A stretch of 64,000 bases of DNA from Volvox africanus. Lineage: Eukaryota; Chlorophyta; Chlorophyceae; Chlamydomonadales; Volvocaceae. Below the pieces are notes generated by a model. That model searched no databases, was not told where the DNA came from, and saw nothing but the letters and a program-made list of their open reading frames with translations. The stretch covers positions 2,232,501 to 2,296,500 of the forward strand of contig BSDZ01000094.1 in assembly GCA_030268105.1 (NCBI GenBank). Direction: 5' to 3'. The position numbers and the translations under genes were made by a program. Within the stretch, counting starts at the first letter, position 1; each line of letters starts with the position of its first letter. Shown in pieces: positions 39,651 through 60,542 of this stretch.

Positions 39651-39977
39651 TGTCATGTGCAGCGAACGGCATCGCTGCATCCACAACACTGGGGGTGTGG
39701 ACTCCCTGTCTTCGGGTGGCGGGCAGACCCGTGTCGAGCCGTCACTGAGAGCTCTAAGCAGTTGATCCCCCGCCCACTGGTACAATGCGGCCCGTCGAAG
39801 CATGCGTCGCGCCGGCCGCCCGTCCTCCTCCGTGACCCCCGCCAGCGCCCCACGAAGGAACGCCAGCGTTGACGCATCACGCCAGACGTCAGGGTCTTGG
39901 CCATCTGCCAAGGCATTCTCCTGTACCTCAGCAGCCGCCGCTACTGCAGCAGTGGCCATCACCACTGTAAGCCCAGG

Positions 39978-40792
39978 TGTTGTATCCTTCCTTCTTCGAT
40001 CATGCACTGAATCTGCACGTCTGAGTATTAGCTACACGTGCATGGTGCTTACGAACAGCAAGACACTTCAGTGCAAGCAACATGACAGCAGAAGACTTGT
40101 AAATAAGGAAAGATTCAACTTACAATGATCTTCAGTTGCAAATTAGGAGTCTGCCGTCAGACCCCGCGGGCAGCGTTCATCATCCGGCTGGGAATGCTAT
40201 GCTGGAATAGCTCAGGCCGATAATAAATGAGTAAAACGTATATATCAGAATCAGACCGAGTTAAGTACACGAGTACTTGACCCAAAATAGCGTCAAGCCG
40301 ACTTCGGTCTCTAGGCGGCCGTCCTCGCACCTATCACGTCGCGATACCGATGTGCAGTACAGGTCTCACTGGATTCCAATCTCAAGTGTGAGTACCTTCA
40401 TAGCACTGTTCTAAATATCGTGTCATCCGTGATATTAATGGATGCAACGCATGCAATATGCGAAGGTCCGAATATCGATATTCGGTTGCCGACCCAACCA
40501 TCGTGATCGTCGCATTCTCGCATACGCGTATGGTTTATGATACAGATGAGGTAATAACATTTAAAGTATTATTACGTGGGATATTATGCCAACGGATAGA
40601 TCGCGCATAATTTATCAGCATCGAGTCAAACATGTTGACCAACAGCGGGATGTCGTAGATGATAATGCGACATGCCTAATTAGCTAGATATACTCGAGTA
40701 TATCATGCTAATATAATTATATCATGCTTCATAATGCTCGGATGAGTTGCGATCTACTTTGGTGCAAACGGCGTTCGAACCCGCGTACAACA
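39978..40792 (-). repeat. Solo LTR, family A, in P2
   Basis: 815 bp in minus orientation with TSD CCAGG at 39973-39977 and 40793-40797. The uninterrupted target is visible in P1 at about 55086 (GCGCCTGGGCTTACGG). Confidence 0.93.
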
Positions 40793-40797
40793 CCAGG

Positions 40798-42120
40798 CGC
40801 CCGCTGTGAGAGCAGGGCGCAGGCTCATGGCGTGAGCAGGTTGTCCGCATCCGCCATGGCTGAGTATGGCTGTATGTCATCCCAGCCGCCAGTCTGGCCG
40901 CCGATCCCACAGCCGCGAGTGCAGCTACGGGAGCCAGCGGGGTCAGATCGGATCCCCCCCCCTGCGGCAAGGCCGTGAGGTGCTTCGTCACAGGATACTG
41001 CATGTCATGGGGCGTGATGAAAGTGTGATGCAGCACCATGCAGAGGGAAAGCGCGACCTGGAAGACCGGCAGCGGAGACGACCGCTCCAGCAGCTCCAGC
41101 TCAAGCTCCAGCATGAAGTCCTGCGACGTCAGTAGCCAGAAGCCCGCCGCCGCTGTGTAGTCAGCGGCGGTGACCTGGCAGGGCGCGCGGATGGGGCCCG
41201 CGTGCAGTGGCGTGCCGGTGACCGCAGGCGGTGGCAAGGCCACCCACGGCCGCCCTGGTAAATCACACACCACATACGGCGGGGTGAGGACTGTGCACGC
41301 CGCCGCCGGCACATGACCGGCCGGCAGCAGCACGGCTAGGTCACGCCCATCAGGCGGGCGCAACTCTGTGACGCAGTGCTGCAAGTGCACCGCGTTAGCA
41401 AGGTTGGTGTAGAGGCAGCTCAAACGGTGAACTGGCGCGCCAGTGATGGCGGCATCCAGGAGCACAGGCAGCCCAAAGAGCCACCCAGCATCCGGCGCCG
41501 CGTTGACATTGACGTAGTGACCCTCCAAGAGGAAGGCCGGCGGTGAAAGGCGCCGCTCACGATGAATCTGCTGAAAACCCCCCAAAAATCCGACAATTTG
41601 CGCAGCACTCCACACACTGTTCTCAGCCCAGCTACGTACAACAATCCACACAGACTCGTCCCCAAAACCCAAGGCCTCGGCAGCTGCAGCCGAGGCCGCC
41701 CAGCACAGCAGGTCAGCAGGAATGCTGAAGGCCGGGACCAGCTGCGAGTCCCAGGCACCTGCGGCGAGCTGACCGGCGAAATGCAGCGCCCAGATTGGCA
41801 CCAGCCGGGTCACTGCGAGCCGCTCACGGGCGTCGCAGGACAAATGAACGTAACGTTGCACACGAAACCCCAAACCCAAACACGCAAGCAGGCCCGATGC
41901 AAGGCCGCCCGGCAGCTCCAAGACACATATCCCCTCACCCCCTACTGCTGCCGGAAAGAAGACATGCTGAACAAGCACGGTATTCACTCCTAAAACTTCC
42001 CCTGTCCCTACCCTGAGGCGCAGGGGCAGCGCCTTGGAGGGCCGCAACCGACGCAAGGCTGCGGCCTCCCTGCGGATGAGCAGGGCCGCTGAAAAGAGAT
42101 GGATCCCCCCGAGGCTGTTC
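40798..42120 (-). CDS. C5-DNA-methyltransferase-like region of P2
   Basis: Open minus-strand frame parallel to the P1 domain. Motif-I-like ICVLELPGGLASGLL, then FRVQRYVHLSCDARERL, VWIVVRSWAENSVWSAA (where Pro-Cys-Gln should be), PPAFLLEGHYVNVN (motif-VI-like) and PVLLDAAITGAPVHR with LYTNLAN (motifs VIII-IX). The frame runs into the leader sequence without a convincing ATG, so translation is uncertain. Differences from P1 are mostly conservative and leave the frame open. The catalytic Cys is absent here as well. See P1 for family reasoning. Confidence 0.6.
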
Positions 42121-42771
42121 GGGCGCCGGTCGATGCCGTCCCGCGGGGAGTGTAATGGCCGGCTTCCAGATGGGCCTCGGCGGCTAGGGTGTTGCTGCGC
42201 CAATGTCCTTGTGTGAGACGCCACTGTCGTGGGTCTGTGGGCGACGGCTCACGCTCCATGCGTGCGGAGCCGAAACCATTCTCACTCGTCCCCGCAGATG
42301 TCCGTCTCGTGTCCATGCGCAGGGAACTTCGTTACTAGGTGTTGAAGAAAAGAATTCCTCAGGATGATGACCCAAGGTTAGCGACACCGTAGAGGCGCGC
42401 TTGCTGTCGCGGTGATGAGACTGGCCAAGTCCCTAGATATCGGAAGCACCCGGAGGCGTTGCGTGCTCCTACCGTCGCGGTGTAGATGCTGTCCGAAGAA
42501 AGAAGCGGAATGTGTAGGTCTGCAGCTCCACACAAACGCCTGAAGCCCGAGCCCGTTCGCGTGAGGACACGATGGCTTGGCTTCGCCTGGTAGTGGGTGT
42601 ATGTGAGGCTGGCGCAGCAGTGTGCTAGCTGTAGCTCGGGCAACTACACTAGACACTGGCCTCACAGCCCGGCCCTGAGGCAAGACTGCGCTACCTGTTC
42701 CTAGCTCTGTCGGTGATGGGGCGTCACGCCGCGCAGTCACCTACTCCTCCAAGCTCCGTCGCGGAGTTCTA

Positions 42772-43639: not shown

Positions 43640-46515
43640 AGAGATCATTGGGTCTGCGTGGCACGTAGACGAGCTTCCTCTAATAGGGGCTTCATTTCTG
43701 GCAAGAAATTACGCGTCGGCTCCCAAGAGTTATGCTCGCTAGAATAGCCAGTCCACTTGACCAGATACTCGTGCACTTCCCGCTTTCGTCGTTGTCGACC
43801 TATACAATGAACCCGATAATCCAGTATCCGCTCCCATCATACACATTTTGCTTGCCTGCGATCCAGGTCTCGGGACCGGGGTCCATTACTGCGGGGGCTT
43901 CGGTGTTGTTTGTGACAGTCGCTGTGTCGCAATATGGACGGACGAGTAAAATAGGAAACGTGGGGTGGATATTCATGTCAGAGGGTAGAGATAGCTCCAC
44001 AGCTACATTCCCTACCATGCGAACAACGGAATATGGGCCAATCCAGCGAGGTAGTAATTTTCGGGAACCGTCGGCGAGCGAACGCAAATTCTTAGTGCTC
44101 AGTAATACCATCTGTCCCGCCGAAAATGTTACGTCTCGTTTGGATTTGTTATAGTAGTCCATCGTCCGTTGTTGTGCCGCGTCCAAGCATGCCTTTGCAT
44201 CTGTCATGCGGGATAGAAACGACTTCGCAAAGGTTTTAGCCGCCGGGATATTTATCTCCAATTCTCGCCACACGGGTAGTGCAGGATGGAATCCATAATT
44301 CAGAAAGAAAGGGCTTTGACCTGTTGCGTGGTTAACAGCGTTGTTAAGCGCAAATTCTGCCGAAGTTAGAAACGTATCCCAAACAGAGGGTGTGCATCCC
44401 GCGAAATTCCTTAACATATCGCCCAACATGCGATTTGTGCGTTCGGTTTGCCCATCGGATTGCGGATGATATGCTGTGCTCAAATGAACGCGCATACCAA
44501 CGAGTTCCCAAAACTTAGATGTGAATTGACCGCCGCAATCAGATATCACATTTTTAGGAACGCCATGCAATCGGACCACGTTATCGAAAAATAATCGTGC
44601 TGTTTGCTCAGCGGTGCAAGACGAGTTGCAGGGGGCCAAGTGAACCATCTTGGTCAAGCGATCGACCATAACTGTCGTATCCCCCCTCAGTTTTGGGCAG
44701 TGTGACTACAAAGTCCATTGAAACACTTTCCCAAGGGGCATCTGGTATAGGTAAAGGTTGTAATAAACCCTGGCCCTTACCAGATAGTGCTTTGTTGCGC
44801 TGATATAAACTGCACCTTTGCACGAAGTTTTCCGCATCCTTCACCACGCGCGGCCACCAAAACGAGCGCCGTACTAGCTCTGCCAATCACGTGCTTCCAG
44901 GATGTCCTGCTAACGGGTCCTCATGGAACCGAGCAAGAATATCGTAGCGTAAAGCGTCGTCGTTCGGCATGATGATTTGCGTGGTCGAACCATCCATCCG
45001 CAGCCACAAGTCGTTGCGCTTGTGCAAATGTTCCACATTACTTGGCGAAGCAAACAATGGATTCATTCATACGCCATCTTGAGTCGTTGCACGAGGTCCG
45101 CTGCTATCGGCACCTCCTGACTGCACGAACGAGTAACCGGTGCTGCCAGGATTGCAGCGTGTAACGATGGATGTCGACTGAGGGCGTCAGCAATATTAAT
45201 TCTGCCAGCGATATACTCCCATGTACAGTCGAAACGAGATAGATACTCCATCCACCGGGCTTGTCGTCAGTTGAGCGTGGGGACACTCTGTAAGAATGTC
45301 AGCGGTTTATGATCGGTCTTCAATGTAAAAGGACGGCCTTCGAGGTAACAACGCCATTCCCTTAAAGCATGTAGAACTGCCAACAGCTCCTGCTCTCCGG
45401 TCGTGTATCGGGTCTCCGCACCCGAGAATTTCTTACTCGTGAAGGTGATCGGTCATCCTTCCTGCAACAATACAGCGCCGCTTCCATGCAGGGAAGCATC
45501 TGATATTACTTCAACATGAAACGGCAACGAGTAATCAGGGAAAGAGAGGGTCACGTCGTTGGCGACAATTCACTTGAGCTCTTCGAATGCCCGCTGGCAC
45601 GCGGGTGTCCAAGTCTCGAGAGAAGCAAAACCTCCTTTCTTCGTCAGATTTGTAAGTGGGGCCGCAATAATGGAGTATTTGTTAATAAACTTACGGAAGT
45701 AGTTGGTCAAAACTAAGAACTGGCGTAGTTCGGTGAGGTTCTGAGGCGCGGGTCATTCGCGAACCACAGCTACCTTCTGTGAGTCCATCCTTATTCCAGT
45801 GGCCGACACGATGTGGCCCAAATACTCCACCTGAGGCTGCGCCCAAAAACACTTGGTGCGTTTAGCAAACAATTGCTCCCGCTTCATCACCTCAAGCACG
45901 AGCTCGAGATGCTTCAGGTGCTCCTCGCGCGTCTTGGATTATATTAAAATATCGTCCAAATAACAAACGACGGACCTGTCGATATACGGTCTGAACATGC
46001 GATCCGTCACTGCTTGAAATGTGGCGGCGCATTAGTAAGTCCAAACGATAAGACCGTGTACTCGAAGTGACCAAAGGGGGTCCAGAAAGCGGTTTTCGGA
46101 ATATCAGAAGCAGCAATGCGTATCTGATTATACCCTTGTTGAAGGTCAATCGAGGAAAAATAAGTTGAGCCCTTCAGCTTCTCAAGCAGGTCATCAACGC
46201 GCGGCAAAGGGTAGCGATTTTTAATCGTAGTCGCATTCAAGCCCCGATAATCAATGCACTTGCGCAACGTCCCATCCTTCTTACCGACAAACAATATCGG
46301 TGCAGAAGATGGCGATGTGCAGGGCTGACTCATATCCCTTGCGAGCAGATCCCCCACCTGCCGCTTCATCCGCTCAATTTTGGCAGCTTAACCTGTACAT
46401 AGGCTGTGAAACGGGTTGTGCTCGAGCACAAGAGGGATCGTATAGTCAGCAGGTAACATAGGTGGGAGCCCCAGGATGACAAATGCATCAGTAAAATTTG
46501 GCAATAGAGGGGGCT
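43640..46515 (-). pseudogene. Chromovirus pol, element F (RT, RNase H, integrase, chromodomain), broken
   Basis: In minus-strand order: RT 46410-45720 ([43 protein letters not shown] and LDDILI); RNase H 45716-45063 (ISDASLHGSGAVLLQEG, TDHKPLTF, INIADALSRHP); integrase 44886-43800 (MDFVVTLPKTEGG, VISDCGGQFTSKFWE, DGQTERTNR); then a chromodomain in a shifted frame to about 43640. Lesions include a frameshift after the RT NAP motif near 46030, several stops in RT/RNase H, and a shift after EGGYDS near 44680. A zinc-ligand change gives CSLYQRN for CSLCQRN, and another shift lies before the chromodomain. It ends at 46515 where P1 is inserted. The 5' part of the same element is probably element D (58203-59729). 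Confidence 0.87.
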
Positions 46516-47026
46516 TGTCATGCACCGTTGAAGGCGTGACAATTCTGGTAAAAGAGCAGTTAGGAAACGACAGTTCCGACAGCTGCTGATTCGCGTGAAT
46601 GACAGTTGGTCGTTGCTGGATCCAAGAGCCGTACGTTTCAGTGATCTCTTGCTGTTACCTAAGGCGAAGACTTCCCGTTGGAAGCGCTTCGCCTGGTCAC
46701 AATATAGACTGTTCGGAATTGAGCCATTGTAACAATAATATATACAGACTCTTACAGTAGTTCACATTCCGCACATCTGCCCAGGCCGCCAATAGATCAG
46801 CCTAATAAAAGGCACTATCAGGACTGATCACCCTGATTAGCTGCCAATGGAACTCCGCGACGGAGCTTGGAGGAGTAGGTGACTGCGCGGCGTGACGCCC
46901 CATCACCGACAGAGCTAGGAACAGGTAGCGCAGTCTCGCCTCAGGGCCGGGCTGTGAGGCCAGTGTCTAGTGTAGTTGCCCGAGCTACAGCTAGCACACT
47001 GCTGCGCCAGCCTCACATACACCCAC
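46516..47026 (+). repeat. 5' LTR of P1 (minimum extent)
   Basis: Starts TGTCATGCACCG at the break in element F. This extent is what is shared with the 3' LTR; the true end may lie further right (CTTCAACA at 47272-47279 is one candidate), because the 3' copy is truncated. No classical TGG primer site was found near either position. Confidence 0.75.
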
Positions 47027-47302
47027 TACCAGGCAAAGCCAAGCCATCGTGTCCTCACGTGAACGGGCTCGGGCTTCAGGCGTTTGTGTGGAGCTGCAGA
47101 TCTACACATTCCGCTTCTTTCTTCGGACAGCATCTACACCGCGACGGTAGGAGCACGTGACGCCTCCGGGTGCTTCCGATATCTAGGGACTTGGCCAGTC
47201 TCATCACCGCGACGGCAAGCGCGCCTCTACGGTGTCGCTAACCTTGGGTCATCATCCTGAGGAATTCTTTTCTTCAACACCTAGTAACGAAGTTCCCTGC
47301 GC

Positions 47303-47611
47303 ATGGACACGAGACGGACATCTGCGGGGACGAGTGAGAATGGTTTCGGCTCCGCACGCATGGAGCGTGAGCCGTCGCCCACAGACCCACGACAGTGGCG
47401 TCTCACACAAGGACATTGGCGCAGCAACACCCTAGCCGCCGAGGCCCATCTGGAAGCCGGCCATTACACTCCCCGCGGGACGGCATCGACCGGCGCCCAA
47501 ACAGCCTCGGGGGGATCCATCTCTTTTCGGCGGCCCTGCTCATCCGCAGGGAGGCCGCAGCCTTGTGTCGGTTGCGGCCCTCCAAGGCGCTGCCCCTGCG
47601 CCTCAGGGTAG
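47303..47611 (+). pseudogene. Original gag N-terminus of P1, interrupted
   Basis: ATG at 47303 (MDTRRTSAGTSENGFG) opens a 102-codon frame whose middle (PSPTDPRQWRLTQGHW) recurs in the gag frame after 47646. It is diverted after SISFRRP by a 113-bp piece copied from pol and stops at 47609-47611. It is the natural gag start, split off by the chimera. Confidence 0.6.
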
Positions 47612-47800
47612 GGACAGGGGAAGTTTTAGGATTGAATACCGTGTAGAGCGTGAGCCATCACCCACGGACCCACGACAGTGGCGTCTCACACAAGGACACT
47701 GGCGCAGCAACGCCCTAGCCGCCGGGGCCCGTCTGGAAGCCGGCTACACTCCCCGCGGGACGGCATCGACCGGAGCCCCAACAGCCTCGGGGGGATCCAT
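47361..47800 (+). repeat. Chimeric tandem duplication in the P1 leader
   Basis: The segment starting GAGCGTGAGCCGTCGCC (47364) recurs at about 47646 (GAGCGTGAGCCATCACC). Between the copies, 47528-47640 matches pol positions 53811-53923. The left join is the same one that created the deletion in P2. Confidence 0.8.
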
Positions 47801-50800
47801 CTCTTTTCGGCGCCCTGGCTCTGACACGGAGGCCTCGCCCAGCCCACGCCTGGACGGCCCGCCGGCGCGCCTTTTCCTCTCGGGGCTGCGGGGAGCTGGC
47901 ATCCCTGGTAGCCGCGCCCCTTCCTCGGGCAGATCCGTCTCTCCCGTGCTCTCCGAAGGTGGGTGGCGAGGCGTGTCTGCAAGCGCTGGTTGGGATGCTC
48001 GCTCTGGGCCCCAGGGGCCACCTTCCCCCCCCAGGGCGGGCGACCGCGCCGTCGCCGCGGGCGGTCATGGCAGCGGTGGCGGTGACGGCGCAGAAGCAGC
48101 GCTCGGCGGCGCTGACGCCCCAAGCTGGGACCCATGGGGCGGTTTCTGGGGTGCTCCCCCTGCGGAGCACCCCGCCTGGGACCATGATGGACACCGAGGC
48201 CGCCGTTTTGTACCATCGGGCGGTGGAGATGATGGAGTGCTGACGCCCGCCACTGAGTATCATTCCATGTTGGGGGATGGACCGGGAGGGTCTGGGCCAC
48301 CAACGCGCTCACTTAGGCGGGGTGTGCGAACTGAGGGGGTCCTATCAGGGAGGCAAGGCTTAGGGGGTGCTTCGCATATGGGAGCTGTCCCACTGCCAGC
48401 CGAGGCGGATCAGCGGCAGCCTAGGGCGCCAGCACCACTTGAGGCCCCGTGCTGGGAGTCAATGCACTTCACCACTGATGCATTTGCCCCGCCAGACCCG
48501 CTTCCGCCCCCTGTGCTTTGGTCGCTCGCACAAGTGGACTATGTCGCTATGGCTGTTGAGCGCCGGTACTCCCTCCGTGGCATATTAGCGCACTCTCTCC
48601 TGTCTCAGATAGGGGAGACACCAGACTCGGGCACGCTGCGGTGCGCTCCCAGCAGCTCCGACGCGGACCCGCCTGTCTGGACCGCAACCCATCTCATGTC
48701 GTTCCTCCCCGCCGTTGCCCGCTTTCTTGACTGCCCCGTGCAGATGGTCCGCTGGGAGGAGCTTTATGCGAGCCTGGAGGACAGGCTGCAGCCGCGCCCG
48801 CCGCCTGCCCCGCTGCAGCCCGGCAGGCCGCCGCTGCAGCCGCGACCGCCCCGCTACCCGGCTCCTGCACCCCCCTCAGCGGGTCCGGCGGCGGTTGCTC
48901 CTGCCGCGCCGGTGGCCTCCGCCTCATATGCCCCGGGCACGCCCCCGCCCGATCCTCCTCAGCCTCCACGCGGGCCGCCTGGGTACCCGCCGGGCGAGCC
49001 ACCCGCTCCACTTCCGCCCCACTCCACTCCACCACCTCCGATCCACCCGGCTCTGGGCTCGCCTGATGAGTGCTCCGCGCCCCATGCCACTGGCGTCGTG
49101 AACCTTGTGGGCGACCCGCAGCCCCGCCAGCCCGGCTGCATCGTGGCGCCCATCTCGCCACACTGGATACCTATGAAAGGCGCTAGGGACTACGCACGGG
49201 CCTACGACGGGGCATCCGATGGTTTCACGGCCTTTAAGTCCCATGCGCTGAGCTATGCTGAATGCGCCCTGTACCCGCTGACCCACGAGAAGCGACAGGG
49301 TGCTGACTACTCGGAGGTCCTGCGCAAGTTGGTCTCTGACTTTCTTCCTGTCAACACGCCCCTCCGGAGCACATACACTCCTGAGGAGCTGGGCCGCGTG
49401 GTGGATCGTCACTACGCGCACTACATCACACATGGTGGGGTGCATGCGGATTACCGGGGGCAGCGGGCTGCCGGAGGCGGCCAGGACCTCATCGCGTTCT
49501 GGCTAAAGGAGGTGCAGGCGCGTGTTCTCCCGAATGCGCAACGCCTGCAAAAGGACTTCGACCAGTGGGCCTACCCCACCGGCGTGGAGCCCAACCTTGC
49601 GGTCCAGGGCTTCAATAACAAGTTTGACCAGCTGGACGCCCAGCTGTACCCGGAGGTCCGCAAGGCCCAACGGTTCTTCGACGCTGCGATTGCAGCACTT
49701 GCGGGGCATGACTTCCTGGTCCGGCGCAAGGAGGACATTCTCACGGAGGACAAATGGAATGCGCTGACGATGGAGCAAGCTCTGCGGTTCCTAAACGCCA
49801 TGGTCAACGCCAAGGGTTCGGAGGGCCTGCTGCCACGCAGCACAGGTGGCACTGGCGGCGGGGGATCGTGGGGCAATGCTGGCGGTGGAGTTGCCAGCAG
49901 TGCTGGTGGCACCACCGCCGGTGGCAGTGGCGGCGGTGGTGGCAGTCGCAACAAGATCATCACGGTGCCTGCGCACGTGCTAGCGCCCGCCAATGGCAAG
50001 GGTGGAAAAGCAGGCGGTGGCGGCGGCAGCCCGCCCACCCCACCTGAGGGGAGCGGTGTCAGCACCGAGGCTGCCGCCAAAGCCGACTTTGTCTGCCGTG
50101 AAGGTCAGTGGCAGGCGCATCAGCACAAGACTTGTAGGTTGCATGTCCTCGCACGGACGCCGCACACCCAGGCGGCGTGCAAGGTCTCGGCATCACGGAT
50201 CTCTACAGACCCCCAGGGGTTGTTCCGTGACATGTGCCGCAAGTTACAGGAGGCGCAGCAGACGGGACAGGTGCCGCGGGATCTCTCTGGCAGCGTCGTG
50301 CAGGCGCAGCAGTTCTTGGCTCGGGCGGCGGCGCCCTCCATGACAGTCACGATTGAACAGGCGCAGCTCCAGCGCATTGAGGACACACTCCAGAGCGTCC
50401 TCGCCATGCAGCAGCTCCCATCCTCGGCCGTCTCAGAGGTCGCCGCGCCCGTGCAACCTGCAGCCCTAGCTTGGCGCCCCCCTGCGCCACCTGTCCCTCT
50501 GGCCGCCCCCTCCATCGCCCCCTCACACGTCACGGCCACCGGGGTCCATGCCGGCCCGCCAGCCGCTGTCTACCGGCCCACACACACACCAGTACAGTCA
50601 CCACTGATGCCGCCTCCACCTCCACACACGCACCCGCCCCGGCAACCGGGCACTTGGCCACTCAATGCCGTCGCCCCTGCCGGCTCCTCTGCGCCCGGCG
50701 ACGCTGCAGTGATGCCCTCCCCGGCCATCCCAATGCCTTTTGCCGGGTACTCCGTCTTCCCCATCGGCGCCACAGTCGGGGAACGCATGCCCATGGGATT

Positions 50801-51296
50801 TCCTCAACTCCCCCGGGCTGCCGTGGCGGGGGCAGCGGAGGTGGCTCATGCTCTTCGCCCAGCCACGCCCCCAGGTGCTGGCGATGCAACGGCCGTGGCG
50901 ACGATCCCAGACCCCAGGTCCGAGCTAAGACCCGACAATTCCAGACTGGATGATATTCAAGGCTGGCTGTTGGCGGCCCTTGCTGGCCTGCACTCCTTTC
51001 GCCGCAGGGGGCTGCCTTCAGCCGCGCTGCCGCCGCCGTATGCCTCACCGGTGGCCGCAGCGGTCTCACACTCAAGTGCAGCGGCCCTCTGTGCGTGGCT
51101 GCCCCACTGCCGTACCTTCAGCAGAACTCAGCCGCGGAGGGACTGCTGGTGGAAGGGCAGCTACCATCGCAGGTGTTGGTGGACACTGGCAGCGCAGTGG
51201 TCCTTGTTGCGCAGCGGCTGGCGGATCGTCTTGAGCTGCAGCTTGACCCAGACGGTGAGTTTGCGGTTACCACCGCCGCTGGCCGTTCACACCTGA
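47565..51296 (+). CDS. Gag-like polyprotein of P1 (1243 codons)
   Basis: The start shown is an ATG inside the copied pol piece, so the real N-terminus is the frame at 47303. Residues 230-500 are very rich in Pro, Gly and Ala. A structured region at about 530-760 (WIPMKGARDYARAYDG, YPLTHEKRQGADYSEVLRKL, FDQLDAQLYPEVRKAQRFFD) resembles a capsid-type helical domain by position and composition. Gly-rich spacers follow, then a Cys/His cluster (FVCREGQWQAHQHKTCRLH) that may be a zinc-binding nucleic-acid module but is not a standard CCHC knuckle. The next frame (protease) overlaps by 202 nt in the -1 frame, suggesting -1 frameshifting; no clear heptameric slippery site was found. Assignment as gag rests on position, not on recognised homology. 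Confidence 0.65.
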   Translation: MSVAALQGAAPAPQGRDRGSFRIEYRVEREPSPTDPRQWRLTQGHWRSNALAAGARLEAGYTPRGTASTGAPTASGGSISFRRPGSDTEASPSPRLDGPPARLFLSGLRGAGIPGSRAPSSGRSVSPVLSEGGWRGVSASAGWDARSGPQGPPSPPRAGDRAVAAGGHGSGGGDGAEAALGGADAPSWDPWGGFWGAPPAEHPAWDHDGHRGRRFVPSGGGDDGVLTPATEYHSMLGDGPGGSGPPTRSLRRGVRTEGVLSGRQGLGGASHMGAVPLPAEADQRQPRAPAPLEAPCWESMHFTTDAFAPPDPLPPPVLWSLAQVDYVAMAVERRYSLRGILAHSLLSQIGETPDSGTLRCAPSSSDADPPVWTATHLMSFLPAVARFLDCPVQMVRWEELYASLEDRLQPRPPPAPLQPGRPPLQPRPPRYPAPAPPSAGPAAVAPAAPVASASYAPGTPPPDPPQPPRGPPGYPPGEPPAPLPPHSTPPPPIHPALGSPDECSAPHATGVVNLVGDPQPRQPGCIVAPISPHWIPMKGARDYARAYDGASDGFTAFKSHALSYAECALYPLTHEKRQGADYSEVLRKLVSDFLPVNTPLRSTYTPEELGRVVDRHYAHYITHGGVHADYRGQRAAGGGQDLIAFWLKEVQARVLPNAQRLQKDFDQWAYPTGVEPNLAVQGFNNKFDQLDAQLYPEVRKAQRFFDAAIAALAGHDFLVRRKEDILTEDKWNALTMEQALRFLNAMVNAKGSEGLLPRSTGGTGGGGSWGNAGGGVASSAGGTTAGGSGGGGGSRNKIITVPAHVLAPANGKGGKAGGGGGSPPTPPEGSGVSTEAAAKADFVCREGQWQAHQHKTCRLHVLARTPHTQAACKVSASRISTDPQGLFRDMCRKLQEAQQTGQVPRDLSGSVVQAQQFLARAAAPSMTVTIEQAQLQRIEDTLQSVLAMQQLPSSAVSEVAAPVQPAALAWRPPAPPVPLAAPSIAPSHVTATGVHAGPPAAVYRPTHTPVQSPLMPPPPPHTHPPRQPGTWPLNAVAPAGSSAPGDAAVMPSPAIPMPFAGYSVFPIGATVGERMPMGFPQLPRAAVAGAAEVAHALRPATPPGAGDATAVATIPDPRSELRPDNSRLDDIQGWLLAALAGLHSFRRRGLPSAALPPPYASPVAAAVSHSSAAALCAWLPHCRTFSRTQPRRDCWWKGSYHRRCWWTLAAQWSLLRSGWRIVLSCSLTQTVSLRLPPPLAVHT

Positions 51297-51610
51297 AGGG
51301 CTTGGTCGCTGGGGGGCTCCATGTGGTGTTTCGCGCCGGCACGCCTGACACGTTTGCTGCCAACGTCCCAGCACTAGTGGTGGCCGATGCGGGCGCGGAG
51401 GCGTTTGAACTGCTGCTGGGTATGCCTGCGCTGGGCCCACATCAGTGCTACCTGGATATGGAGGAAGGACGTGAGCATTTACGGCTGCGGCCACCGGGCC
51501 GCGACCCTATCGACCTCCCGGTCGTCGTACGGTGGCCCGCGTTAGTGGAACCCCCGTCGTCTGCTTATCTACAGCCGCCCCCAACTGGTGAGGGCGGCTG
51601 GTCATCATGA
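51095..51610 (+). CDS. Aspartic protease of P1
   Basis: SQVLVDTGSAVVLVAQRLAD holds the DTG active-site triplet of retroviral-type aspartic proteases at about residues 30-32. FELLLGMPALGPHQCYLD matches the second conserved block (hydrophobic-hydrophobic-G). It would cleave the polyprotein. The frame is -1 relative to gag and the same as RT, from which it is separated by TGA at 51608-51610. An alternative frame just after that stop (MSAPALAAGRHYPVADPL) also looks coding, so a pair of small indels near 51600 and 51680 may have created the stop. Confidence 0.85.
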   Translation: MAAPLPYLQQNSAAEGLLVEGQLPSQVLVDTGSAVVLVAQRLADRLELQLDPDGEFAVTTAAGRSHLKGLVAGGLHVVFRAGTPDTFAANVPALVVADAGAEAFELLLGMPALGPHQCYLDMEEGREHLRLRPPGRDPIDLPVVVRWPALVEPPSSAYLQPPPTGEGGWSS

Positions 51611-52780
51611 GTGCCCCGGCACTTGCGGCGGGGCGCCACTACCCCGTCGCTGACCCGCTGCTGCCGCTCATCGACGACAGATGACAACGATGGTTTTCTG
51701 GAGCCGGCAGATTTTACACCAGAAGGGCGGCGCACACTCCCGCCCGAGGCCAAGTTCACGGTCACCGCTGGCAGGTGGTTGCTGTGCGACCGCCCGGACA
51801 TGCCGCCGGAGCTGGCCGCGCAGTTTAAGGAATTGGTGGATCAGTACAACGGCGTTTTCGCCCGCAGCATGGCGGATCTAGGAGAGTATTGCGGTGACGT
51901 GGGCCCTGCCCGCATCGAGCTTGCTCATCAGCGCCCCATCTACCAGCGGCCCCGTTCCCACAGTCAGGAGGAGTACGCCGCTATGGACGCGGCCTGCCAG
52001 GAGCTGCTGGATGCCGGGATCATCGAAGAGAGCCGCTCCAGCCAGTACGCCATGAACTCCACCCTGCCGCCCAAGCGGTCGGTGGATGGTACCTGGACTC
52101 AGCGGCTGTTTTGTCAGGACGCACGGGAGCTCAATGCTGCCACTCTGCCCGACCTGCACCTGTCGCCGCTGCCGGAGCAGCTGTTTCAGCAGGTGGGGGA
52201 CTCGCTGTGGCTTACCAAGATGGACTGCCGGGCTGCCTTCCTGCAGATTCCGCTGGCACCTGAGCATCGGGAGCGTACTAGCTTCTGGTGGCGACGGCGG
52301 CTGATGCAGTACAGGCGTCTGGTGTACGGCCTGCGGAACGCCACAGCACACTTCCAGCGTGTCCTGGACCACGCCATTCGCCAATACGGTTTGGAGCATT
52401 TTGTCGCCTGCTACGTCGACGACCTGCTTGTCTTCAGTAGCACGGCGGAGGAGCATCTGGAGCACCTGGAGCGTGTGTTTGCCATGCTGCGGGACATCGG
52501 CATCAAGTTACACCCGGAGAAAACCCTCGTCGCGGGCGACTCGGTTGAATTCCTGGGTTTCATGGTCTCGGCGCGTGGCCTGTCCCCTACCCGCGCCAAG
52601 GTGGAGGCACTGCTGGCGTTGGAGCCGCCCACGTCCTCTGCTGGTGTGCGGCGGCTGCTGGGCATGTTCTCGTACTACCGGGGGCTTGTCCCGCATTTTG
52701 CCCACATCACCGCGCCCCTCAACCCGCTCACCAGTACCAAGTACGTGTGGCACGTGGAATCGTGGGGTCCGGAACAGTAG
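51611..52780 (+). CDS. Reverse transcriptase of P1
   Basis: Ty3/gypsy-type RT, about 370 residues. Motifs in order: AACQELLDAGIIEESRSSQY, LFCQDARELNAATLPDLHLS, LWLTKMDCRAAFLQIPLAPE (first catalytic Asp in KMDCR), YGLRNATAHFQRVLD, then CYVDDLLVFS (YVDD) and FLGFMVSARGLSPTRAK. The frame ends at TAG 52778-52780 between SWGPEQ and AALDELKR, exactly in frame with RNase H. This is most simply a CAG-to-TAG point change. There is no true start codon at 51611; RT is normally made as part of pol. Confidence 0.92.
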   Translation: MPRHLRRGATTPSLTRCCRSSTTDDNDGFLEPADFTPEGRRTLPPEAKFTVTAGRWLLCDRPDMPPELAAQFKELVDQYNGVFARSMADLGEYCGDVGPARIELAHQRPIYQRPRSHSQEEYAAMDAACQELLDAGIIEESRSSQYAMNSTLPPKRSVDGTWTQRLFCQDARELNAATLPDLHLSPLPEQLFQQVGDSLWLTKMDCRAAFLQIPLAPEHRERTSFWWRRRLMQYRRLVYGLRNATAHFQRVLDHAIRQYGLEHFVACYVDDLLVFSSTAEEHLEHLERVFAMLRDIGIKLHPEKTLVAGDSVEFLGFMVSARGLSPTRAKVEALLALEPPTSSAGVRRLLGMFSYYRGLVPHFAHITAPLNPLTSTKYVWHVESWGPEQ

Positions 52781-52816
52781 GCGGCACTTGACGAGCTTAA
52801 GCGCATCTACACACAG

Positions 52817-55800
52817 ATGGACGGTCCTGTGCTGCGGCGGGTTCATCCTGACCGGCCGCTCATACTGCACACGGACTTCTCTGGTGTGGGCATCAGCGGG
52901 ATCCTGGGGCAGCTCGACGATGCTGGGCGTGAGTACCTCTGCGCGGCCGTCTCTCGTTCCCTCAACGTGCACGAGCGGCGGTATGACAGCTACAAGGGGG
53001 AACTTTTGGCGGTGGTGTGGGCCAGCAAACTCTTTTATCCGTACCTCGCCACGCGTCACTTCACCGTCGTCACCGACCATGCGCCGCTGCTGTGGCTCAT
53101 GTCTCAGCAGGACGGCCTGCCTGCGCAGTACGCACGGTGGGCCCTACAGCTGCAGGCGTTTGCTTTTGATGTGGCGCATCGGCCTGGCAAGCTGCACCAG
53201 AACGCCGACGCCCTGAGTCGGCACCCGCGAGACTCAGCGCATGATGGGTCTGGAGCTCGAGTGGACGAAGACGGCGACCCTCTGCGTTCGCCGCCTGTGC
53301 TGGTGCCGTACCCGGGCGTCCAGTGGCCGCTCTACGCCTTCTCTCGTGCGCTTGCGGCTGCTGGAGCCCCTGCGGCGGTCGCAGCCCACCTCACGGTGGT
53401 TGCGGCTTGCTCGGTGGCGCTGGCACAACGGTTTTTGGATGGTCAGGATTTGACGAATCCGGCCAGTGGGCTGGCCGCCGCCCCAGATGCGGTTGGCCCG
53501 CTCGCTGGCCTTGCACACTTCGCTGGCCCGGTCCCTCGTGCACGTGCTGCGACCTGGTGCGTGCACGCGGTGTGTCTCGTGGCCAGCACGGGGCTGCCCG
53601 TCACGGCGGCCTCAGAGCTGGACTACGACAATGAGCTGGAGACCTTGGCGGCGGGGCAACTCGCCGCCGGGGGGCTGGAGGCCCCGGGGGCGGGGCAACC
53701 TGCCCTCGGGGAGCTGGAGACCTCGGTGCGGGGTGTGCTGCCTTCCGCCGAGCCACACGTGCCTTGCAGCCTTTCTGGGCCGCCGGTCACTGGCGCCGTC
53801 ACACTACAAACGGCGGCCCTGCTCATCCGCAGGAAGGCCGCAGCCTTGCGTCGGTTGCGGCCCGCCAAGGCGCTGCCCCTGCGCCTCAGGGTAGGGACAG
53901 GGGAAGTTTTAGGAGTGAATACCGCGCTTGTTCAGCATGTCTTCTTTCCGGCAGCAGCAGGGGGTGAGGGGATATGTGTCTTGGAGCTGCCGGGCGGCCT
54001 TGCATCGGGCCTGCTTGCGTGTTTGGGTTTGGGGTTTCGTGTGCAACGTCACGTTCATTTGTCCTGCGACGCCCGTGAGCGGCTCGCAGTGACCCGGCTG
54101 GTGCCAATCTGGGCGCTGCATTTCGCCGGTCAGCTCGCCGCAGGTGCCTGGGACCCGCAGCTGGTACCGGCCTTCAGCATTCCTGCTGACCTGCTGTACT
54201 GGCCGGCAGCCGAGGCCTTGGGTTTTGGGGACGAGTCTGTGTGGATCGTTGTAGGTAGCTGGGCTGGGAACAGTGTGTGGAGTGCTGCGCAACTTGTCGG
54301 ATTTTTGGGGGGTTTTCAGCAGTTTCGTCGTGAGCGGCGCCTTTCGCCGCCGGCCTTCCTCTTGGAGGGTCCCTTCGTCAATGTCAACGCGGCGCCGGAT
54401 GCTGGGTGGCTCTTTGGGCTGCCTGTGCTCCTGGATGCCGCCGTCACTGGCGCGCCAGTTCACCGTTTGAGCTGCCTCTACACCAACCTTGCTAACGCGG
54501 TGCATTTTCAGCACTGCGTCACAGAGTTGCGCCCGCCTGATGGGCGTGACCTAGCCGCGCTGCTGCCGGCCGGTCGTGTGCCGGCGGCGGCGTGCACGGT
54601 CCTTGCCCCGCCGTATGTGGCGTGTGATTTACCAGGGCGGCCGTGGGTGGCCTTGCCACCGCCTGCGGTCACCGGCACGCCACTGCGCGCGGGCCCCATC
54701 CGCGCGCCCTGCCAGGTCACCGCCGCTGACTACACAGCGGCGGCGGGCTTCTGGCTACTGACGTCGCGGGACTTCATGCTGGAGCTGGAGCTGGAGCTGC
54801 TGGAGCGGTCGTCTCCGCCGCCGGTCTTCCAGGTCGCGCTTTCCCTCTGCATGGTGCTGCATCGCACTTTCATCACGCCCCATGACATGCAGTATCCTGC
54901 GACGAAGCACCTCACGGCCTTGCCGCAGGGGGGGGGATCCGATCTGACCCCGCTGGCTCCCGTAGCTGCACTCGCGACTGTGGGATCGGCGGCCAGACTG
55001 GCGGCTGGGATGACACACAACTCAGCCATGGTGGATGCGGACAACCTGCTCACGCCATGGGCCTGCGCCCTGCTCTCACAGCGGGCGCCTGGGCTTACGG
55101 TGGTGATGGCCACTGCTGCAGTAGCGGCGGCTGCTGAGGTACAGGAGAATGCCTTGGCGGAGGGCCAAGACCCTGACGTCTGGCGTGATGCGTCAACGCT
55201 GGCGTTCCTTCGTGGGGCGCCGGCGGGGGTCATGGAGGAGGACGGGCGGCCGGCACGACGCGTGCTTCGACGGGCTGCATTGTACCAGTGGGCGGGGGAT
55301 CAACTGCTTAGAGCTCTCAGTGACGGCTCGACACGGGTCTGCCCGCCGCCCGAAGACAGGGAGGCCATAGTGCGGCGAGTCCATGCGGTGGCCCACCTTG
55401 GCATTCGGCGGACACTGGCGTTGGTGCAGCTGGGCTACTGGTGGTACCGGATGCGTCGAACCGTGCAGGAGGTTGTGCGCGGCTGCAAGCTGTGCGATAT
55501 GACCAACAGCATTGGTACGGCGCGCCCGGTGCAACTGCAGCCCCTGGCGATCAGGGGCATGTTCTACCGCTGGGGCGTGGACCTAGCGGGGCCTCTGCCG
55601 CCCACCGAGCCGTTTGGCTTCACCTTCGTTATGGTCTGCATTGAACACTTCACCAAGCACGCGGAGTTCTACCCGCTGCGCAGCAAGCAACCTGAGGAGA
55701 CCTCCCGTGGTCTGTTAGAGCTCATCACTCACTTCTCGGCCCCTGCCGAGGTGCTCACAGATCGTGGGGGAGAATTCCAGGGGGCCTTTCATCAATTTCT

Positions 55801-56922
55801 ACACCAGTGTTTCGTCGACCATCGCTTCACCTCTGCCAGTCACCCGCAAGCAGACGGGGCGGCCGAGCGGATGGTGCGAGTGGTAAAGGCGGCACTACGC
55901 AAGTATTGTGCGGACGTCAAGAGGAGCGATACCTGGGACCAACACCTCCCCTGGCTGGCACTCGCCTACCGCTGCTCACCGCAGGCTTCGACTCGGTACT
56001 CACCGTACGAACTCATGTACGGTGTGAAGCCGATCGTTCCTCCTGCCGTGCGGGAGCGGATGGCAGAGCCGCTGGGGTTCACGGGCAAGGGATCTGAGGA
56101 GAGCTACGTGGCCGCACTCCATGAGCGCGCCGCGCTGCTGCGGCGGCACATGCCCATCGCGGCAGCCAACCTGCTCATCGCGCAACACCGGGACACGCAG
56201 CGCTATGCCCACGTGCGGTCGGGCCGGTACCGGCCTCCGTCTTTGGAACTTGCCCCCAGTGACTACGTCTACGTGCGGCGCACTGCGGTGCACAACACAC
56301 TGCAGCTGCCAGTCCACGATGAGGTGCTGCGCATTGAGCGGGTGGGGCCCATGGGTGTTGTAGTCCTGGTGGGGAAGAATGGGAAGCGTATGAGGAGGCG
56401 CATGGAACAGTTGAGGCCGTGCCACCTGGTTGACATCGATCCGATAGTGGACCCGCGGCTTCAGCGGCCATCAGCGGATCTTGCTTGCGAGGTCTGCCAC
56501 TCGCCGCACGATGAGGCGCAAATGCTGCTATGTGATGCATGCGGGACGGGTTGGCACCTCCAGTGCCTCTCCCCGCCACTCAGCGGCGTGCCGCCCGGCC
56601 AGTGGGTCTGCCCGGAGTGTGTCAGGCTCAAGCGTGAAGCCCCGACAGGGCCAGAGATGGACCTGCCGGAGGCGGAGGCGGTTCTTTTCCCCAACACCGC
56701 CTCGCGGCGTCGGGATGCAGAGGCCGCCGCCCTCAATGGGAAGCGAGTCAGGCGTGTCGTACATGCGAGCCAGGGCGGGCGACGGCAGAAGGTGGTGACG
56801 TTGGGTACATTACGTTTCGTGGAGCGTTGGCGCGGCCACACTACTTCTTCATAGAGTGGGATGGTGGGTCGGCCGAGGAGGTTAATCTCTCTGTGGCCAA
56901 GCGCCTGATCGTGGCTGGATGA
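52817..56922 (+). CDS. Pol C-terminal part of P1: RNase H, C5-methyltransferase-like domain, integrase, PHD finger
   Basis: The long frame runs 52817-56854; a 1-nt shift near 56805 hides its natural end at 56922 (RPHYFFIEWDGGSAEEVNLS). RNase H: residues 16-135 (HTDFSGVGISGIL, SYKGELLAVVWAS, VVTDHAPLLWL). Methyltransferase-like: residues about 360-600 (ICVLELPGGLASGLL near 382, FLLEGPFVNVN near 515, PVLLDAAVTGAPVHR near 536). Integrase: H-x3-H-x29-C-x2-C from 855, catalytic Asp in GVDLAGP (920), Asp in LTDRGGEF (980), Glu in DGAAERM (1013). PHD: residues 1225-1269. The frame from RT continues into it. Integrase motifs are complete. The methyltransferase-like domain lacks the catalytic Cys. The pairing of an internal DNA-methyltransferase fold with a C-terminal histone reader suggests chromatin-linked targeting or silencing control; that is inference. 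Confidence 0.85.
53880..54620 (+). other. C5-DNA-methyltransferase-like domain within P1 pol
   Basis: Lies between RNase H and integrase, where other elements here have only a short linker. Motif I-like: VLELPGGLASGLLACLGLGF. Motif II-like: HLSCDARERLAVTRL. Motif IV position: VWIVVGSWAGNSVWSAA, with Ala-Gly in place of Pro-Cys. Motif VI-like: PPAFLLEGPFVNVN (normally ENV). Motif VIII-IX-like: PVLLDAAVTGAPVHR and LYTNLAN. The order and spacing fit canonical rather than rearranged C5-methyltransferases. Without Pro-Cys, methyl transfer by the known mechanism is not expected. Confidence 0.72.
56490..56624 (+). other. PHD finger at the C-terminus of P1 pol
   Basis: C-x2-C-x11-C-x2-C-x4-H-x2-C-x14-C-x2-C, a perfect C4HC3 PHD, with the conserved Trp two residues before the seventh ligand (GQWVCPEC). 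PHD fingers bind histone H3 tails. It follows the integrase C-terminal part (YVYVRRTAVHNTLQLPVHDE), the position taken by a chromodomain in elements A, C, F, H and J. Confidence 0.93.
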
Positions 56923-57689
56923 GGTGGGGCTAGGATCTGGGGGGGGGGAGAAATTAGTAGGCCGGAGGTGCCCCATGAAGGGAGCTCTGGTGTTGACAGA
57001 GCTAGGGTTGTATTCCCTGGGCCGACGTGTTGGGGGTCACAAAGTTGCAGGCTGTGATGATGGGATTTCGTTAAGGTGGTCTCCGCGATGGGGCGCCGTC
57101 CTCAGCTAGGGGCGCCGTTGGAGGTGTGAGGTGGCTTCCGTTTTCTGGTGCCCCGTGATGGGTGCCCAGCGGAGGGATGAATTTCTGACAACAGCTGAGG
57201 GGTGCTCGACGTTCCCTCTCTGGGCGGGTATGTACTGCCAGTTAGGTTGCCATCGGCTCTGGTTTAGGTATAGTGGTCTCCACGCCGAGTGAGACCGTTT
57301 GATAGTCTCAGGGTTGTACAAGGCCCCTGGGCTATTTGGAGACACCAGAGCAATTAGGATTCCGGTGGTCTTTCTTTGTAGTTTGCTGCGGGGCTCATTC
57401 CACTAGGAGCCTTCTCTTTAGGGTCAGTTGTCGGCCCAGTGAGTGGTGTGCCGTCAGTCGGTGGTTATCTCCAGGGCAAGTCAGGAGCGCACGTCCACTT
57501 CGTGTTCATGTCGAGGTTACGGCAGGACAAGCCAGTCAGGACAAGCATGGATTGCTGGCTCTCAGGAGACCCCATGCGCATGGATATTGCCATCACCTCC
57601 CTCGCCAGTTTCGCTAGCTGCGTTCGGGGGGGGGAGTCCACACCCCCAGTGTCGTGGACGCAGCGATGCCGTTCGCTGCACATGACAGC
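56923..57689 (+). other. 3' untranslated region of P1
   Basis: No coding signal. G-rich purine runs at 56937-56952 and 57625-57636 (GGGGGGGGGAG); the latter, or sequence near it, is the likely polypurine tract. 57635-57689 is also present in P2 next to its deletion join. Confidence 0.6.
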
Positions 57690-58202
57690 TGTCATGCACC
57701 GTTGACGGCGTGACAATTCTGGTAAAAGAGCAGTTAGGAAACGACAGTTCCGACAGCTGCTGATTCACGTGAATGACAGTTGGTCGTTGCTGGATCCAAG
57801 AGCCGTACGTTTCAGTGATCTCTTGCTGTTACCTAAGGTGAAGACTTCCCGTTGGAAGCGCTTCGCCTGGTCACAATATAGACTGTTCGGAATTGAGCCA
57901 CTGTAACAATAATATATACAGACTCTTACAGTAGTTCACATTCCGCACATCTGCCCAGGCCGCCAATAGATCAGCCTAATAAAAGGCACTATCAGGACTG
58001 ATCACCCTGATTAGCTGCCAATGGAACTCCGCGACGGAGCTTGGAGGAGTAGGTGACTGCGCGGCGCGACGCCCCATCACCGACAGAGCTAGGAACAGGT
58101 AGCGCAGTCTCGCCTCAGGGCCGGGCTGTGAGGCCAGTGTCTAGTGTAGTTGCCCGAGCTACAGCAAGCACACTGCTGCGCCAGCCTCACATACACCCAC
58201 TA
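57690..58202 (+). repeat. 3' LTR of P1, right end truncated
   Basis: Starts TGTCATGCACCG. Matches 46516-47028 without gaps, then diverges at 58203, where minus-strand element D begins. Confidence 0.8.
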
Positions 58203-59729
58203 GTCCACACCCCCATCATGCTTATCACTAGTTTAAGATAAGGTCGTCAGTGACACCTGTAGCTCATAGGTGTCCCGAAATTCCGATCAACAAAAGCGAC
58301 TTCGTTGCCATCCAAAGGAGTCAAACGTGGTATACCTCCGCATCATTCCTACAATCCACGATACTCCACAGAAAAGGATTCGTAAGAGGCACCAAATTAT
58401 TAATCATCGAGTTATCTAGCCAAAGGTAGCGAAGAGTCTCCTCATACCAACATTGCTGGATACAATCAAGGTTAATCCAAGTCAGTACATAATTCAGGAC
58501 TCCATGTCAGCTGACATTCCCGTGTTAGCGTGGACTGGGTGTTCCGGCAATATCAACGGAAGTCGTGTTAGGTGCTTCGTCCGTCGAACATAGTTCTACG
58601 GCTAACGGGGGTAAAAGCGGGCAGTTCCTTGTAGGGTGATTTGATGCACACCGAAGGCAAACTCCCAATTGTCGTCGCTGCACAAACTCCGCTTGCGTAC
58701 ATCCCCACTTGGTAAGCCATCAGTTTTGTGTTCTTGACCGCTTCGATTCTGATGCAGCTCCACGTGACTCGGCGGTATTTTGTAGCACATCCTTCCTTTT
58801 CCCCATACTTCGAGTCATATGAGAATCTCTTGGGATCAATTCTTGGGTACCAGGAGTATGAGCGCGATCGGTCAGCGGAAGGTGGCCATGGTGCATAGGA
58901 GCCGGCGGTAATGGAATTCCAGTAGTCTCAGGTGCTGGATCAGTCTCGTTAGTAATATCTTGCGTCGTATCAGCTGATAGCGGTGCTAAAGATGTCGGGC
59001 GTTCTTGTCCCGTTCTAAGGCGAGCTTAGACGTAACGAACGATCTGAACCCATCGCGTGTACGACCTTGTCCCTTCCAGTGTCAGGTCCGTAGTACTCAC
59101 TCGGGCTAACTGAAGCAAGAGACCGCGTTGAAACCAATAAATGTAGTCTCCTTCTGAAAAGCCAATCATGGATGCTGTCAGTCCCTCAAAACGCAACCGG
59201 TAGTCCTCCACTGACTCGTCAGGTCGCATTGGATAAGTGCCTGCGTGTAATTCTCGGTACATGGCAGCCACTTGCGACTGATTTCCGGGAGCAAAATGAG
59301 TGAGAAGCGCGTTAATTAGCTCTTCGAACGTAAAGTGCTCCTGCACAGTGGTCCAATGATCATACCACTCCCTCGCGACACCGCTTAATGTGGCCCCGAT
59401 GAATAGACACTTCACTTCGTCGCGATCACCACCCTTTACCAACTTCAGATACCTCTTAGCGTCACGGACATAGGAGTGTGTGGCGCTCGCAATAACCTTG
59501 GGTTCAGTGTCGCGATGAATATGAAGTTGAGGTGTTGGGACGATGAAGCCGGGAATCCCGCCTTCATCCATAAGTTGCTGTAGTGACACCATCGCTGGGT
59601 TTTGCTCCGCTTCAGTGGGTCTCACAGAATCTGGTGTCTCAGGTGGATCCTGAGCTGGGTAGGGGTAGTTCGACTGGGGGGCATCTGCTTGAAAATATGT
59701 AAGTGATCGACGTTCGGTGCAGCCTCCGG
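58203..59729 (-). pseudogene. Element D: gag, zinc knuckle and start of protease region (probably the 5' part of element F)
   Basis: Minus strand. Gag 59729-59026 (SNYPYPAQDPPETPDSVRP, AREWYDHWTTVQEHFTFEE, MRPDESVEDYRLRFEGL) is almost the same as element A gag, but without its early stop. The zinc knuckle lies at 58790-58602 in a separate frame, where the third Cys reads Arg (CSD...VHQITLQGTARF in one frame), showing a shift. 58600-58203 corresponds to the decayed protease region. Its order and strand continue element F across P1, minus about 470 bp. The gag begins directly at the LTR at 59730 with no leader, so the 5' end is rearranged. Confidence 0.8.
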
Positions 59730-60542
59730 TGTTGTATCCTTCCTTCTTCAATCATGCACTGAATCTGCACGTCTGGATGTTAGCTAGGTGCACGCCGAGC
59801 TTACAAACAGTAAGATGATTCAATACAAGGAAAGTGACAACGGAAGACTCAACAATAAGGAAAGATCCAACTTACAATATTCTTCGTTACAAATGGGTAG
59901 TCGGCCGTCAGACCCCGCGGGCAATGTTCATCATACGGCTGAAGATGCTATGCTGGAATAGCTCAGGCCGAATATAAATGCATATATCATATGTATCCGA
60001 ATTAGATTGTGTCAAGTACACGAGTACTTAATCCAAAGTAGCGTCGAGCCAACTTCGGTCTCTAGGCGGCCGTCCTTGCACCTATCACGTCGTGATACCG
60101 ATGTGCAGTACAGGTCTCACTGGATTTCGATCTCAAGTGTGAGTACCTTCATAGCACTATTCTAAATACCGCATAATCCGTGATATTAATGGATGCAACG
60201 CATGCAATATGCGAAGGTCCGAATATCGATATTCGGTTGCCGACCCAACCATCGCGATCGTTGCGTTCTTGCATACGCGTATGGTTTATGACATAGATGA
60301 GGTAATAATATTTAAAGTATTATTACGTGAGATATTATGCCAATGGATAGGTCCCGCATTAATATCAGCCTTGAGTCAAACATGTTGACCAACAGCGTGA
60401 TGTCGTAGATGATAATGCGACATGCCTGATTAGCTAGATATACTTGAGTATATCATGCTAATATGATTATATCATGCTTCATAATGCTCGAATGTATTGT
60501 GGCCTACATCGGTGTGAACGGTGATTGAACCGGCGTACAACA
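59730..60542 (-). repeat. LTR, family A, minus orientation
   Basis: 813 bp. It is joined to the gag of D on the left, and to an unrelated leader (element G) on the right. The flanks TCCGG and GTACC do not match, so it is neither a simple solo insertion nor an intact 5' LTR; recombination is likely. Confidence 0.87.

Follow-up and report, generated by a model that had tools for sequence, protein, structure and literature searches.

A Ty3/Gypsy retrotransposon family of Volvox africanus whose pol region combines a probable DNMT3-derived, catalytically dead domain with a PHD finger

We analysed a 64,000-nucleotide (nt) stretch (the window; C91:2232501-2296500) of the 141-Mb genome of Volvox africanus, in which a member of a Ty3/Gypsy retrotransposon family is inserted. 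In the pol region of this element, a domain that is probably DNMT3-derived and catalytically dead separates RNase H from integrase, and the integrase is followed by a PHD finger. The element is Gypsy by its enzymes and a variant by its ends. Protease, reverse transcriptase (RT), RNase H and integrase occur in this order, and the integrase is of the DDE type with an H2C2 zinc finger, in agreement with the assignment made in the initial annotation. Complete identical long terminal repeats (LTRs) at both ends are lacking, with one repeat (A1) at the left and a compound arrangement (B1-A2-B2) at the right.

Domain order in pol and its recurrence

In the open reading frame (ORF) 52817-56854, Pfam profiles were matched in the order RNase H, integrase H2C2 zinc finger (E 2.9e-14), integrase core (E 9.4e-7) and PHD finger. 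The core scored 29.5 bits against a Pfam cut-off of 32.6, which was exceeded by P0004 and P0005, related proteins from Pleodorina and Astrephomene, respectively. Across the ~700 residues separating RNase H from integrase, within which the DNMT3-like block lies, no Pfam match was obtained at E<=10. The order of RNase H, block, integrase and PHD finger described in the initial annotation stood, but the single continuous pol frame did not: the frame is continuous only from RNase H onwards, and upstream it is broken by two stops, one separating protease from RT and the other RT from RNase H (Table 1). Past the PHD finger, the window frame terminates sooner than those of P0004 and P0005 and, because of this early end and the upstream stops, the window copy is probably non-functional.

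A protein search with the window frame yielded three relatives, and alignment A3 yielded one further. P0003 is a V. africanus gene model; P0005 contains RT, RNase H, block, integrase and PHD finger in the same order as the window; P0004 contains block, integrase and PHD finger; and P0006 is a metagenomic fragment bearing RNase H and block. When the genome was searched with the block, 53 places were found, which were merged by position into 24 loci of the family (window included) whose main pieces were 88 to 100% identical in protein. Surroundings were read for 23 of these loci (1,500 nt on each side), and RNase H upstream together with integrase downstream of the block was present within this distance in 15, the rest being truncated or rearranged. 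Because it recurs across family loci and relatives, the domain architecture is not a product of chance.

The C4HC3 PHD finger, already recognized at the outset, was confirmed by its Pfam match (Table 1) and by the zinc-ligand spacing, which is found in the window, P0004 and P0005. In the PDB ranking, multi-PHD chains (CHD4, KMT2D, KMT2C, and PHF12) stood above entries with a single matched stretch, the closest of which were ATXR5, Lid, KDM5B, and PHF21A. These four single-PHD proteins bind unmodified histone H3 lysine 4 (H3K4), and by sequence the finger of the element appears nearest to such readers. P0004 and P0005 also share a conserved tail past the PHD finger (RPHYFLVEWDEGSAEP in P0004), chromo- or Tudor-like by eye, for which Pfam gave no match and PDB a single one at E 1.5 that we attribute to chance.

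Descent, catalytic residues and constraint of the DNMT3-like block

The block had originally been read as a cytosine-5 methyltransferase, with a match to PF00145 named beforehand as the check. Neither the window ORF nor the relatives searched matched PF00145 at E<=10, short of the Pfam cut-off by which an active cytosine-5 methyltransferase would be recognized, and searches of Pfam, NCBIfam and PDB with the block alone yielded nothing useful. The simple Pfam test with the window protein was thus negative, and the likeness to DNMT3 becomes visible only through a profile of the relatives together with structure comparison, structure prediction being the other check proposed.

The A6 profile of the relatives matched DNMT3 only, and structure comparison of model 2 by VIA gave DNMT3 in rows 1 to 11. 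Furthermore, the later DNMT3 motifs come in order and the Cys of P0006 aligns to the catalytic column. These results argue against another Rossmann-like (dehydrogenase-like) or an unrelated alpha/beta domain in which the DNMT3 likeness would reflect convergence on a glycine-rich loop. Several observations weigh in the opposite direction: Foldseek ranked short-chain dehydrogenases first for model 2, VIA gave a tie between short-chain dehydrogenases and DNMT3 for model 1, the predicted models are of low confidence, and profile A3 and single sequences matched no DNMT3 in PDB searches. Taken together, we consider such a different fold unlikely, and DNMT3 descent of the block likely, with moderate strength. 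The right limit of the block is uncertain, the structure alignments stopping near 54480-54530 or at 54871.

Whereas DNMT3 descent is probable, the initial reading is unsupported as regards an enzyme. In the window, residues FD of motif I (53978-54070) are replaced by PG, the motif IV position (54245-54280) reads GSWAGN with Gly in place of Cys, the motif VI position (54347-54379) reads LLEGP, and the motif VIII position (54419-54496) reads HRLSCLYTNL, in which the second Arg is absent. Of 30 locus records, some of them overlapping, 27 had a readable motif, and every one of these showed Gly at the catalytic Cys position, as did P0004 and P0005. Instead of the Pro-Cys of motif IV, Volvox and Astrephomene have Ala-Gly, Pleodorina has Gly-Gly and P0006 has Ala-Cys. 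Each of the five proteins under comparison has Glu-Gly-Pro (EGP) in place of the Glu-Asn-Val (ENV) of motif VI. The window, P0003, P0004 and P0005 thus lack both the catalytic Cys and the Asn-Val of ENV. Because the Cys position is Gly, ENV has become EGP and the second motif VIII Arg is missing, the block is predicted to be catalytically dead. A still active cytosine-5 methyltransferase with unusual motifs, acting on host or element DNA, would be in keeping with the Cys that P0006 retains in motif IV (GSWACDN) and with the low ratio of nonsynonymous to synonymous polymorphism (pN/pS) given below, but the Gly in all readable Volvox records, P0004 and P0005, the altered motifs VI and I and the lack of a PF00145 match make it highly improbable.

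A search of the V. africanus genome with a DNMT3A fragment, made without a positive control, gave no match. The sole PF00145 match in a six-frame genome search, which intron-split genes can escape, was L001 (C3:7326631-7326951), whose motifs PPCQP and ENVPGF suggest the host DNMT2/TRDMT1.

In eight well-aligned copies (L007, L009, L010 and L011 dropped; codon pairs with two or three changes skipped), pN/pS was roughly estimated at 0.32 for the domain, 0.33 for integrase, 0.47 for the RT end plus RNase H and 0.46 for the region after the domain. In 12 copies without skipping, it was 0.38 for the domain and 0.74 to 1.00 elsewhere, the latter values being inflated by indels. Many positions of the block are invariant across the window, P0003 and P0004 to P0006. 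Both the integrase-like pN/pS of the eight copies and these invariant positions argue against a DNMT3-derived domain without present function, carried as a decaying passenger between two needed enzymes of the pol frame. Such a passenger would nevertheless fit the loss of catalytic residues, the linker pN/pS of 0.36, which is close to that of the domain, and the identity to Astrephomene, which is 47% for the domain, no better than for the linker (47%) and below RNase H (77%), integrase (71%) and PHD finger (74%). The domain looks constrained, yet no more than its neighbourhood, and we regard a passenger as unlikely.

Replication of the element would be of the Gypsy type, by protease, RT, RNase H and a DD35E integrase, and the two extra modules would likely have an accessory job. 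The dead DNMT3 fold may provide a platform for binding proteins or DNA, much as DNMT3L acts for DNMT3A. The PHD finger may help to position integrase on chromatin without the H3K4 mark or maintain a new insertion in a particular chromatin state. DNMT3L, a vertebrate accessory protein to DNMT3A, has a catalytically dead DNMT3 fold and an ADD domain that reads unmodified H3K4. The element likewise pairs a dead DNMT3 fold with a putative reader of unmodified H3K4; unlike the element, DNMT3L is a cellular protein, its ADD is not a canonical PHD finger and no integrase lies between its modules, and the resemblance would be one of build, descent not being implied. Retention of the DNMT3 fold after catalytic loss would point to a use for it in a mobile element other than methylation, and its pairing with a PHD finger makes a histone-reading choice of integration site directly testable in algae.

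Table 1. Features of the element in the window
Feature	Positions	Strand	Remarks
Terminal repeat A1, 513 nt	46516..47028	+	Left end of the element; starts TGTCATG
114-nt duplicate of block start (53811-53924), inserted into leader	47528..47641	+	
gag-region open frame	47565..51296	+	Pfam: no match at E<=10
Aspartic protease	51095..51610	+	PF13975 E 4.9e-9; stop 51608-51610 closes frame
Reverse transcriptase, YVDD	51611..52780	+	PF00078 E 7.7e-26; stop 52778-52780 closes frame
RNase H	52817..53233	+	PF17917 E 3.5e-28; opens long frame 52817-56854
Variable linker	53234..53956	+	47% identity to Astrephomene where aligned
DNMT3-like domain	53957..54871	+	Profile and structure comparison
Integrase, H2C2 zinc finger and core	55343..55846	+	Pfam; D-60-D-35-E by residue count
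PHD finger, C4HC3	56486..56620	+	PF00628 E 8.7e-11
Polypurine-tract-like run GGGGGGGGGAG at B1 start	57626..57636	+	Putative assignment
Repeat B1, 53 nt, ending CATGACA	57635..57687	+	
GC dinucleotide separating B1 from A2	57688..57689	+	With flanks, palindrome CATGACA-GC-TGTCATG
Terminal repeat A2, 513 nt	57690..58202	+	
B2, first 13 nt only	58203..58215	+	Remaining 40 nt missing in window copy

Split terminal repeats and integration

The span first assigned to the element (46516-58202) has the correct left end, A1, but its right end lies past the second 513-nt repeat, where B2 follows, and the split terminal repeats had been overlooked. The genomic layout is A1-internal-B1-GC-A2-B2, with 6 mismatches and no gaps between A1 and A2. 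In copies on C23, C21 and C14, the 51 to 53 nt (B) preceding the second A recur directly after A. Among 41 places listed in a search for the A-B junction (best 40 of 171 candidates scored), the junction was whole at 17 and partial at 2, with A alone at 21 and B alone at 1; the window, with 13 nt of B, is one of the 2 partial junctions. In all three copies read at both ends (C23, C21 and C76), 4-bp target duplications (CCTG, ACCG and TACA, respectively) flank the terminal TGTCATG and CATGACA, with B2 of the C76 copy reduced to its final ~10 nt. A tandem internal-B-A-internal arrangement on C117 and a tandem satellite of element pieces on C25 would be expected if the A-B-A-B ends had arisen from insertions in nested or tandem arrangement and were not the normal form, but the 17 whole junctions and the duplications lying exactly outside A1 and the B2 end render this very unlikely.

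No target-site duplication was found for the window copy, the right end of which seems deleted. This copy is inserted in a high-copy Gypsy element on the minus strand and, because three other copies of that host element have 485 nt between the two flanking sequences (best 40 of 710 candidates scored), we infer that 40 nt of B2 and ~485 nt of target were lost at the right end. An integrase piece with an SH3_Tf2-1 domain and a Retrotrans_gag protein, at 43800-44669 and 59026-59751 of the window (minus strand), probably belong to this host element.

Split direct repeats (A-internal-B-A-B) are characteristic of DIRS/PAT retrotransposons, such as Kangaroo of Volvox carteri, which rely on a tyrosine recombinase and are not known to duplicate their target sites. 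The element shares the split direct repeats and differs in its DDE integrase and 4-bp duplications; none of the four frames scanned matched a tyrosine recombinase domain at E<=10. Given the position of the polypurine-like tract at B1, a conventional LTR of reverse transcription would be B+A. The cDNA would then be circularised and the circle cut by integrase at the internal palindrome B|A (CATGACA-GC-TGTCATG), so that the genomic form would be a circular permutation bounded by TGTCATG...CATGACA and flanked by target duplications of 4 bp. Ends of this kind pose the question of how an integrase of the retroviral type acts at a junction inside the repeats. A wider and tentative possibility is that this volvocine Gypsy lineage has its own DNMT3L-like targeting, in which the dead DNMT3 fold and a PHD finger for unmodified H3K4 would steer integrase or recruit a host methylation or silencing partner, with DDE integration from a circular, DIRS-like permuted intermediate.

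Known elements and diverged or rearranged copies

The initial annotation knew of no described element with this combination, and searches of open-access literature revealed no description of DNMT3 and PHD together in a Gypsy element, but a precedent for the capture had been missed. KnitGypsy-Dnmt3 of Klebsormidium nitens is described as encoding a DNMT3 domain within its Gypsy-type pol polyprotein and, according to a figure legend, as having DIRS-like repeats with Gypsy-type domains (PMC5890265); its DNMT copies are given a Ka/Ks of <0.2 (de Mendoza et al. 2018, PMC5890265). From this published description, and not by sequence, it resembles the Volvox family in capture site and repeat order. 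It is also among the retrotransposon DNMTs already known to retain key residues (PMC5890265), whereas the Volvox family has lost them, and its host is a charophyte and not a chlorophyte; the term PHD is absent from the text of that paper. DNMT3 capture by Gypsy elements is therefore known, and the Volvox family appears to stand apart by its loss of catalytic residues, its PHD finger and its chlorophyte host. If both belong to the same lineage, the capture would predate the charophyte-chlorophyte split and the pseudo-enzyme would have arisen later.

Chromoviruses, including Chlamyvir of green algae, are Ty3/Gypsy elements described with a chromatin reader past integrase (PMC3350952). Theirs is a chromodomain, whereas the Volvox element has a PHD finger there, and neither the window ORF nor P0004 and P0005, tails included, gave a Pfam match to a chromodomain at E<=10. 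Ginger1-9_HM, among the listed Ginger1 families, has a Gypsy-type integrase with a C-terminal PHD (PMC2836005). Ginger1 elements thus resemble the Volvox element in the PHD after a Gypsy-type integrase and in 4-bp target duplications, but they are cut-and-paste DNA transposons with a transposase as the sole protein described (PMC2836005).

Beyond the 24 family loci, the genome search with the block found a truncated locus on C86, a diverged locus on C15 (58%), an eight-piece array on C25, the leader piece of the window element and three distant remnants. On either side of the leader insert of the window element lies one copy of a duplicated leader segment (47363-47541 / 47646-47821). A second, internally deleted copy lies at 39649-42769 of the window (minus strand), in which a partial A and leader are fused to the DNMT3-like block (53813-55092), with 55088-55367 and then the B1 region following. 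Neither RT nor RNase H nor the main part of integrase was matched in this copy. Splicing as the origin of the leader-block junctions in this copy and at 47528-47641 was dropped, only short microhomology and no GT/AG being seen by eye. The C25 array (L074; C25:1537000-1540100), which holds the eight block pieces, is a tandem array with a 2,536-nt unit consisting partly of element pieces, in which the A/B1 region adjoins linker and the start of the block.

A second lineage is represented by decayed remnants at L032, L033 and L039/L041 (overlapping records), which contain a motif-I-like stretch (L033: LGGVCTGLEACLRNGIRVNRYLY); L032 and L033 also have a motif-VIII-like stretch. A protein search with the L033 remnant and a scan of viral contigs with P0005 and L033 returned no relatives; the L033 piece had seven matches, including itself, two of them weak. 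A third, distant relative, L034 (C77:1873893-1874621), covers only the second half of the block at ~33% identity, and more copies of this type are present on C77, C91 and C28.

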